Shown piece by piece: positions 18,562 to 20,836 of a DNA stretch of 64,000 nt. Under the pieces are notes generated by a model. That model was given only the letters and a program-made list of their open reading frames with translations, was not told the origin of the DNA and searched no databases. Within the stretch, counting starts at the first letter, position 1, and the number at the start of each line of letters is the position of its first letter. Source of the DNA: Planctomycetota bacterium (GTDB taxonomy: Bacteria; Planctomycetota; Phycisphaerae; Sedimentisphaerales; Anaerobacaceae); the NCBI GenBank assembly GCA_030605475.1, contig JAUWIG010000051.1, positions 1 through 64,000 on the forward strand, in the 5' to 3' direction. The position numbers and the translations under genes are program-made.

Positions 18562-19221
18562 GTGAATTTAATTTTTGAAAAACGAGGTCTCGTGGACCAT
18601 AAACAGCGACATAAAAGCTTGCGTCTGCTTATTAGCAAGGTCAACAAAGAGCGCAAGAAGCAGGCCAAGAAAATAGATATACTTTGCAATGACCTCATTG
18701 CGGCCCAGAGGGACTTCATCAAGAGACTGAATACAATCAGTTTCACAGCAAGTTTCTACGAGTCAATCATCGGGACAACCGATTTGAGCACCCTTTTCTA
18801 TACCGCCGGCAAGCTCATCAAGGACGAAATCCCTGATGCGAACATTGCCTTCTTTTTGCGTCAGGCAGAGAGCTTCGAATTGCACTTATTTGAGAGCGAT
18901 CAGCCAATCACTTTAGAGCAGCAGCGTCTTGAGAATTGTTTTACGCCCGAGCTGGTGGACAATATCTGCAAGTCGAACAAGATATGCACTCTCGAGGATA
19001 TGTTTGCGATGGGTCTGCAGGGCAACTTAACCAGGCTGAATAAAATCTCAGCCGTTACGGTTCCACTGGGCCAATTCGGCTCGTCATTGGGCTTTATATT
19101 GATTTACCGCTCATCGCAAAACAAATTAACCGCTGCCGAATTAAACCACATCTCCGCAATAGCCCCGGGATTATCCCAGGCGATACAATCCTGTCAGGTA
19201 CTTTCGAACTCTGCAGATTAA
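18562..19221 (+). CDS. Coiled-coil plus GAF-like domain protein
   Basis: Residues 1-55 are a lysine-rich helical or coiled-coil segment. Residues about 70-215 look like a GAF domain: an LSTLFYTAGKLIKDEIPDANIAFFL opening, a central strand set and a closing VTVPLGQFGSSLGFILIYRSSQNKLTAAELNHISAIAPGLSQAIQ. GAF domains bind small ligands or mediate dimerisation; no ligand residues are diagnostic here. The GTG start has GCGGAG upstream. The next gene, 268 bp away on the same strand, is the tubulin-family GTPase, so a functional link is possible but unproven. Confidence 0.65.
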   Translation: MNLIFEKRGLVDHKQRHKSLRLLISKVNKERKKQAKKIDILCNDLIAAQRDFIKRLNTISFTASFYESIIGTTDLSTLFYTAGKLIKDEIPDANIAFFLRQAESFELHLFESDQPITLEQQRLENCFTPELVDNICKSNKICTLEDMFAMGLQGNLTRLNKISAVTVPLGQFGSSLGFILIYRSSQNKLTAAELNHISAIAPGLSQAIQSCQVLSNSAD

Positions 19222-19489
19222 AGATTTTGCCGCGATGGGAATATAGGACTTAACTGGCCCACAAGGTGAAGAGCTGTTCAGCGTTGTACTCTGCAGCCTG
19301 CGGGGTATAGCTGAAAAATAGATTCTTTGTGATAAAAACCAAAAAAAGGCAAAAAAGAAGTTATATACCCCCATTAGTGGGTCGATAAAAAGCGATGTTG
19401 TTTCGATTGGGTTATGGCAAGTCTTTGACAACAAGAACTGAGAAAAGAATTTTAAAAAACAATTATTTGGGTATAAGGAGAAGTGAAAT

Positions 19490-20836
19490 ATGGCAAAAAC
19501 ATCAGTTAAAAATAGAAAAACGGCAACTAAAAAAAGGCCTGTCTCAAAAGTCAAGGCAACCAGAAAAACTGCTGCTTCGAAACGACGCACGGCAGCCAGG
19601 AAACGCGTGACACCGAAGGCCAAGGCAGCCAGAAAAACCACAAAGGGAGTCTCCCGAAGACGAAGCCCTGTAACGGCAAAAGGTGAATTTGATTTCAACG
19701 CCTGGCTACTGCCCACTTTAGCTCTGGAACAATACGAACCTAATGTTGAGCAAGAGACTGGTGTTGGTGACAAGATTAAGGGCTCTACCCGTTATGCATG
19801 GATTGGTGCCGGTCAGTGTGGTGGAAGGTTGGTTAAGTCTTTCTATGACTTAGGGTATAAGAAGGTATTGGCCGTGAATACAACTCACCATGATTTGGAT
19901 TTGCTTGATATCCCCCAGAATCAGAAATTCCTGATGAACATAGGCGAAAGGGGTGCCGGCAAGGATATGGAAAGAGGCAGAGGAGCTGTCCAGCAGTATC
20001 AGCAGGAAATTTTGCACCTTGTCAGGCAGACACTTGGCTCTCAAGTGGACCATATTATGATTGGCTTTGGGGCAGGTGGTGGTACCGGCAGCGGAAGTGT
20101 TGTTGGATTGATTGAAATTGCCAAAAGGTACGCGCGGTATATTGGACTGAAGAATCCAGATAAGAATGTGGGTGTAATTATGACTTTACCCACTGTAGGT
20201 GAAGCCAGTTCACCATTGGTAGCTGAAAATGCGTATGAAGTGGCTAACGAGTTAAGTCAAATGGCTTCGGCTGGAAAAATATCACCTCTCATCATTATAG
20301 ACAACGACAAGATCAACAAGATGTATCCGGGAATGACGGTAAGGTCATTCTGGCCCAACATAAACAATACCGTTGCAACTCTGTTTGATATATTCAACAG
20401 GCTCAGTGCCTTGAGCAGCCGCTATACTTCTTTTGACCCTGTAGATTATCACAGCATTATGGAGTCCGGCGGATGCGCGATAATGGGCCTGACTAAAGTG
20501 AATAAATTCAGCGACAGGTTTGCAATATCTGGGGCAGTGAAAAAGAACCTTGAGAAGACATTACTTGCCGGCGGGTTCGATTTATCTACCGCCAAACTGG
20601 CTGGGTGCATAGTTGTCGGCGGGAGAAAATTAATGGCCAACATCAAAGGTTTGCAGGACAACATCGACTATGCATTTGATGTTTTGTCGGAGGTAACCGG
20701 CAAGGCCTCTATCCATCGGGGCATATATGAAGACAACAGAGAGTCCTTAAGGGTGTACACGATTATCGGAGGCTTGGATGGTCCTACTGCTCGGCTGGAA
20801 GAACTTAAAAGCCACAGGGCTGTTAGCGTCCGTTAA
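19490..20836 (+). CDS. Tubulin/FtsZ-superfamily (CetZ-like) GTPase with histone-H1-like N-terminal tail
   Basis: Residues 1-58 hold 25 Lys/Arg and no acidic residue, with AKK/ARKT/TPKAKAA-type repeats like histone H1 or bacterial Hc1-type tails. From about residue 100 a tubulin-superfamily GTPase follows: T1 GAGQCGG (106-112), VNTTHHDLDLLDIP, a G-rich T3 region (GERGAGKDMERG), T4 GGGTGSG (196-202), DND (271-273) and a T7-like loop FDPVD (D316, D319) before GGCAIMGL. The key nucleotide-binding and hydrolysis motifs are thus present. The GQCGG and IIIDND features look more like CetZ or tubulin than canonical FtsZ. AAGGAG precedes the ATG. The tail predicts DNA or polyanion binding. The cellular role is unknown. 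Confidence 0.85.
   Translation: MAKTSVKNRKTATKKRPVSKVKATRKTAASKRRTAARKRVTPKAKAARKTTKGVSRRRSPVTAKGEFDFNAWLLPTLALEQYEPNVEQETGVGDKIKGSTRYAWIGAGQCGGRLVKSFYDLGYKKVLAVNTTHHDLDLLDIPQNQKFLMNIGERGAGKDMERGRGAVQQYQQEILHLVRQTLGSQVDHIMIGFGAGGGTGSGSVVGLIEIAKRYARYIGLKNPDKNVGVIMTLPTVGEASSPLVAENAYEVANELSQMASAGKISPLIIIDNDKINKMYPGMTVRSFWPNINNTVATLFDIFNRLSALSSRYTSFDPVDYHSIMESGGCAIMGLTKVNKFSDRFAISGAVKKNLEKTLLAGGFDLSTAKLAGCIVVGGRKLMANIKGLQDNIDYAFDVLSEVTGKASIHRGIYEDNRESLRVYTIIGGLDGPTARLEELKSHRAVSVR

Follow-up and report, generated by a model that had tools for sequence, protein, structure and literature searches.

Planctomycetes divide in unusual ways and have no canonical FtsZ. CetZ, a further protein with the tubulin fold, is a family of archaeal cell-shape proteins which are not known to carry a basic tail of the kind described here. 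DNA is not the only partner of basic tails: polyphosphate, RNA and membranes are bound as well. TubZ reaches DNA through TubR by way of its C-terminal tail, which is basic in some plasmids, and the C-tail of pBtoxis TubZ binds the TubR-DNA complex (PMC5322520, PMC7762940). The disordered tails of TubZ also modulate its assembly (PMC5322520), and TubY has a lysine tail with affinity for DNA as well as membranes (PMC7762940). FtsZl1, described by Makarova and Koonin, has a coiled coil, lacks a recognisable T6-H7 and occurs in Planctomycetes (PMC2875224). AlgP and PhaF have histone-H1-like tails for which DNA binding is known or presumed, and AlgP-type repeats do bind DNA in vitro (PMC9239181).

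An earlier note on the window (the whole 64,000-nucleotide stretch of planctomycete DNA that was analysed) had described a "Tubulin/CetZ-like" GTPase with an H1-like basic tail, and knew of no standard bacterial tubulin-family protein with such a tail. Taken as a general claim this was too strong, since long basic C-terminal tails occur in some TubZ proteins (PMC5322520, PMC7762940). In those parts of the literature on Planctomycetes with TubZ, FtsZ or tubulin that were available, no account of the family to which the window protein belongs was found.

The gene and its tubulin core

The features of the locus, all on the + strand, are as follows.
18562..19221, +, GAF-like coiled-coil protein 5' of the tubulin gene, a possible regulator kept in close relatives only
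19475..19480, +, Shine-Dalgarno-like AAGGAG, 9 nt 5' of the ATG (sequence and alignment of three upstream regions)
19490..20836, +, tubulin-superfamily GTPase with N-terminal basic tail, 448 aa (ORF; orthologues 72-84% identical)
19490..19681, +, H1-like basic tail, residues 1-64
19682..20833, +, tubulin fold core, residues 65-448 (AlphaFold2; TubZ Z 38.5)
19805..19825, +, T1 loop GAGQCGG, residues 106-112 (sequence, alignment)
20069..20095, +, T4 signature GAGGGTGSG, the GTP phosphate loop, residues 194-202 (sequence, alignment)
20300..20308, +, DND of the T6 region, residues 271-273 (sequence, alignment)
20435..20446, +, T7-type D-x-x-D, D316/D319, invariant in 32/32 aligned copies
20714..20734, +, HRGIYED family signature near the C-terminus, common to the phage relatives

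The 448-residue ORF starts at an ATG, and in the alignment of three upstream regions the AGGAGA ahead of this start was kept in two relatives. T1, T4, DND and D316/D319 were all present in sequence and alignment, in agreement with the earlier note. The Pfam Tubulin model PF00091 matched the protein with 46.5 bits (cut-off 33) which, with the motifs and the fold, bears out its place in the tubulin superfamily, its GTPase motifs being intact. AlphaFold2, with 32 family members as input, recovered a tubulin fold for the core (pLDDT 86.7, pTM 0.86). The nearest solved structure was TubZ (Z 38.5, TM 0.76, 2.4 Å over 336 residues), followed by CetZ (Z 35.4) and then FtsZ (Z 31–32), with a range of 29–38 across TubZ, CetZ and FtsZ structures, and TubZ was also the best match in a profile search of PDB sequences (1.5e-15). 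Given that TubZ came first in both, we regard the protein as TubZ-like instead of CetZ-like, so that the second half of the label "Tubulin/CetZ-like" is the less fitting one.

In further profile searches the protein reached 48 bits against a cut-off of 295 for the FtsZ equivalog TIGR00065, and fell just under the cut-off for FtsZl1 (Tubulin_2, PF13809; 26 vs 27 bits). TubZ-like_C (PF22453) gave 21.7 bits against a cut-off of 26, which one phage relative did pass (31.8 bits). The C-terminus, ...EELKSHRAVSVR, is without a peptide of the FtsZ D-I-P-x-F-L-R-R type. Purifying selection on the core is strong (dN 0.08 vs dS 0.98 between the window copy and that of L002). From the motifs and the modelled fold we infer GTPase activity and polymerisation, and the protein is probably filament-forming.

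The basic tail and the fused paralogues

Residues 1–58 hold 25 Lys/Arg and no Asp/Glu, as the earlier note had counted. That note had allowed for a wrong start, with homologues consistently lacking the tail; instead, of the 28 measured copies that are full-length or nearly so, 22 carry it, most tailed copies sharing a MAK/MTAK/MAAK-type start. A wrong-start artefact was ruled out, the tails being in frame and common to orthologues. In the tailed orthologues, all from one planctomycete order, the tail comprises 46–227 N-terminal residues with a net charge of +17 to +87, and the core stays near neutral across copies (about −9 to +7). Tails are mostly Ala/Thr-rich beside Lys/Arg, and this composition is constant while the repeat style varies, for example KRTTAKRHATPKAKA repeats vs KKAAKKTAKK. 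The tail DNA of L006 consists of tandem repeats of 54 and 66 bases; the tail of the window protein is not built as such an array. The neighborhood survey covered 421 ORFs of at least 150 aa, of which 16 had such a terminus, 16/16 belonging to the tubulin family, and a search of the window's own genome, weak because of low complexity, found no other protein with this tail.

Some paralogues and one close orthologue are without the tail, and it is missing or short in L011 and in the leading gene of each of the tandem pairs L014, L015 and L057. Tail-less and short-tailed copies occur as tandem pairs, the second member of which carries a fused AAA lid of NtrC type. AAA_lid_14 was matched in the second gene of such pairs in three copies (1e-15 to 1e-17), and Fis HTH_8 reached its cut-off in one class C copy (L015, 6e-5). 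The paralogues are listed here, class C from domain matches and class D from alignment.
L015:6708-8285, +, tubulin core with NtrC-type lid and Fis HTH (class C)
L057:7726-9519, −, tubulin core with NtrC-type lid (class C)
L016:8878-10578, +, tubulin core with NtrC-type lid (class C)
L074 and L076-L079, class D paralogues with the T7 D-x-x-D kept

The three lid fusions have no AAA motor, and their T4 Thr is changed to Ala. The predicted structure of a class C copy has helices in the lid/HTH region, at low to modest confidence, and an RtcR-type defence model matched the HTH-fused paralogue over the common lid/HTH part only. Class D copies have lost the T1/T4 residues and kept the T7 pair, purifying selection still acts on them, and they mostly adjoin hisA, Mg-chelatase and D-Tyr-tRNA deacylase genes. 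In a tubulin filament a class D protein could complete its neighbor's active site without GTP binding, and so act as a cap. In L011 the second tubulin copy is interrupted by an assembly gap.

We propose, at about even confidence, that the protein forms a TubZ-like filament which attaches itself to DNA by its H1-like tail and organizes or moves that DNA. Monomers would bind GTP via T1, T4 and T6 and stack head to tail, D316/D319 of one subunit completing the active site of the next, and the resulting filament may be dynamic (treadmilling). The flexible N-terminal tails would coat it as low-specificity DNA-binding arms, and by analogy with AlgP, PhaF and the basic TubZ C-tails they probably tie the filament to DNA; with such arms it would need no adaptor of the TubR kind to attach to nucleoid DNA. 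The target could alternatively be invading DNA of phages or plasmids. In some genomes the NtrC-type lid or Fis HTH of the tandem second subunit could give site-specific attachment, and this HTH-fused partner is the best independent hint of DNA as the target. Against self-tethering stand the lack of a TubR-like neighbor and of iterons 5' of the gene, the sporadic presence of the gene (see below) and the copies with a missing or short tail. If true, this would amount to a one-protein plasmid segregation motor: a tubulin that polymerises and brings its own DNA-binding-like tail.

The partner of the tail could instead be a polyanion other than DNA (polyphosphate granules, RNA or ribosomes), the filament then spacing granules or ribonucleoprotein. 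Tail composition alone cannot separate DNA from polyphosphate, and H1-tailed AlgP is required for even spacing of polyphosphate granules in Pseudomonas (PMC9239181). However, AlgP-type tails bind DNA too, the HTH-fused paralogue favors DNA, and the neighborhoods show no consistent link to polyphosphate or translation genes, so we consider this unlikely.

Phage relatives, distribution and gene neighborhood

As judged from sequence identity, the closest relatives outside the window's own order are tubulins of uncultured marine bacterial viruses. Scanning IMG/VR with the family alignment gave 167 relatives, the best 80 of which are 50–53% identical to the window protein, and a second scan, its alignment led by phage sequences, gave 211, for which the identities refer to the phage query and not to the window protein. 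The family alignment was required, since the window protein by itself matched nothing in a scan of the viral contigs; INPHARED had no close copy in any phage record, the best being phage G gp138 (25%). Representative contigs were genuine phages, and those examined in detail were T4-like. Genes for the terminase large subunit and a T4-type portal lie close 3' of the tubulin gene in one phage group, SbcCD lies 5' of the tubulin gene, and ribonucleotide reductase was found in another group. The terminase of one tubulin phage is 44.6% identical to those of Flavobacterium phages and 43% to that of a Microcystis phage. No phage copy examined has a Lys/Arg-rich tail, their N-termini being absent or at most 37 residues long and mostly acidic.

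One tubulin phage (L156:9089-9757, −) encodes a secreted protein with a PEP-CTERM-like end, PTPG...RRRR, relatives of which, mostly full-length, occur in 10/397 genomes of the window's class. This gives a weak hint, from class genomes only and with no outside control, that the host of this phage may be a relative of the window bacterium.

In a tree with TubZ as outgroup the phages formed one clade (100/100). For planctomycete monophyly there was no decision either way (AU p 0.39), and the tree therefore sets no direction of transfer between phage and host. On present sequences, the family is common to one Planctomycetota order and uncultured T4-like phages. That this undescribed family has become, in the bacterium, a self-tethering DNA cytoskeleton, in which tail or HTH replaces TubR and nucleotide-dead paralogues cap, is a tentative reading that we would sooner doubt than assert.

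A captured phage tubulin could also serve defence or superinfection, by co-assembling with, capping or sequestering phage filaments, or by coating incoming DNA. The phage identities (50–53% among the matches listed, with more relatives from the second scan), the sporadic presence with tandem paralogues, and copies that lack T1/T4 and keep T7, as expected of filament caps, are consistent with this. The neighbors, however, are housekeeping genes and not defence islands, the core is highly conserved, the host of the tubulin phages is merely hinted at, and PADLOC assigned the window protein to no known defence family; we therefore hold a defence role improbable, at the level of the polyanion reading.

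Orthologues 72–84% identical to the protein were found in MAGs named as Phycisphaerae or Planctomycetota, one of which bears the label Sedimentisphaerales. The gene was present in 20/397 genomes of the class, all of the window's own order, in 1–3 copies each, and at least 20 genomes of the window's own family are without it. In its own genome the window protein is the sole tubulin-family protein, with no separate ftsZ, and none of 392 sampled genomes of the phylum passed the FtsZ model cut-off; both agree with the earlier note's view that Planctomycetes generally lack canonical ftsZ. The genome encodes a normal ParB, so basic chromosome partition is probably independent of the tubulin protein. 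A role in division is unlikely, as sister genomes lack the gene, and replacement of FtsZ was likewise judged unlikely, the gene being sporadic and failing the FtsZ model. Sporadic presence, the FtsZ-model negatives and the normal ParB together point to an accessory cytoskeleton, not a division machine.

MAGs of other Planctomycetota families yielded two FtsZ-like proteins with FtsZ_C and a C-terminal peptide of D-V/I-P-T-F-L-R-R type (L093:801-1964, +; L094:541-1677, −), which run counter to the view of an FtsZ-less phylum and may be contamination. In another planctomycete family an FHA domain and a coiled-coil-like stretch are joined to a divergent tubulin core that lacks GGGTGSG and has the GIYED end motif (L100:2418-4079 and L101:2585-4345, both +).

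The GAF-like gene at 18562, which had been suggested as a partner, has a dN/dS of ~0.15–0.17 and was retained only in two close relatives (L002 and L011), which does not favor a conserved partner. Genes of similar length 5' of the tubulin at other loci are ribulose-phosphate epimerases. Neighborhoods of the copies vary (gap-pgk-rpe, signal peptidase/HAD/CYTH, hisA/Mg-chelatase), and no conserved operon was found apart from the tandem paralogues. Directly 3' of the GAF-like gene L002 has a short array of 7-base GA-rich repeats (L002:7651-7748) that is absent from the window.

A cytoskeletal or division filament with its tail on anionic membrane would suit a phylum that has a tubulin family and lacks canonical FtsZ, and in TubY a lysine tail does bind membranes besides DNA (PMC7762940). 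Division is nonetheless independent of the gene in the at least 20 same-family genomes that lack it, the FtsZ C-terminal peptide is absent, the FtsZ equivalog score is low (48 vs 295 bits), and no linked division genes were seen in the neighborhood survey, making this reading very doubtful. Equally hard to credit is a tail that acts on the filament alone (bundling, solubility or length control), without any nucleic acid as partner: disordered TubZ tails do modulate assembly (PMC5322520), but the very long tails and the HTH fusion would be left unexplained and the core, being near neutral, offers no strongly acidic partner for bundling.

Comparison with known systems

The phage relatives, the HTH-fused paralogues and the degenerate paralogues go beyond the earlier note. 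Through its relatives in uncultured phages, at about 50% identity, the family links the cytoskeletons of viruses and bacteria, and it offers direct testable pairs: tail and no tail, phage and host, active and nucleotide-dead copies. The uncultured T4-like marine phage tubulins, known from IMG/VR and not from isolates, share 50–53% identity across the whole core among the matches listed, together with HRGIYED, but unlike the window protein they have no basic tail.

TubZ of Bacillus plasmids and phage c-st, which serves type III partition, is alike in fold (Z 33–38) and in T1/T4/T7 layout; its identity to the window protein is only ~20–25%, and the window gene is chromosomal. Type III partition has TubR and tubC, whereas at this locus the gene 5' of the tubulin is the GAF-like one, there is no TubR-like neighbor, and no direct repeats or tubC-like iterons were found in 19222-19489 or in the window. 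CetZ has the tubulin fold in common (Z 32–35), with lower similarity than TubZ. FtsZ shares T1, T4 and the T7 D-x-x-D, but differs in that the window protein scores far under its model cut-off, has no FtsA/ZipA-binding C-terminal peptide and is encoded by a sporadic gene. FtsZl1/Tubulin_2 belongs to the same superfamily, from which the window protein is set apart by its clear T7 and a PF13809 score just under the cut-off. TubZ tails are C-terminal, whereas the basic tail of the window protein is N-terminal and H1-like. In being repetitive, Lys/Ala-rich and disordered, the tails of AlgP and PhaF resemble that of the window family, but they are not joined to a polymerising GTPase, whereas the window tail is carried on a tubulin core.
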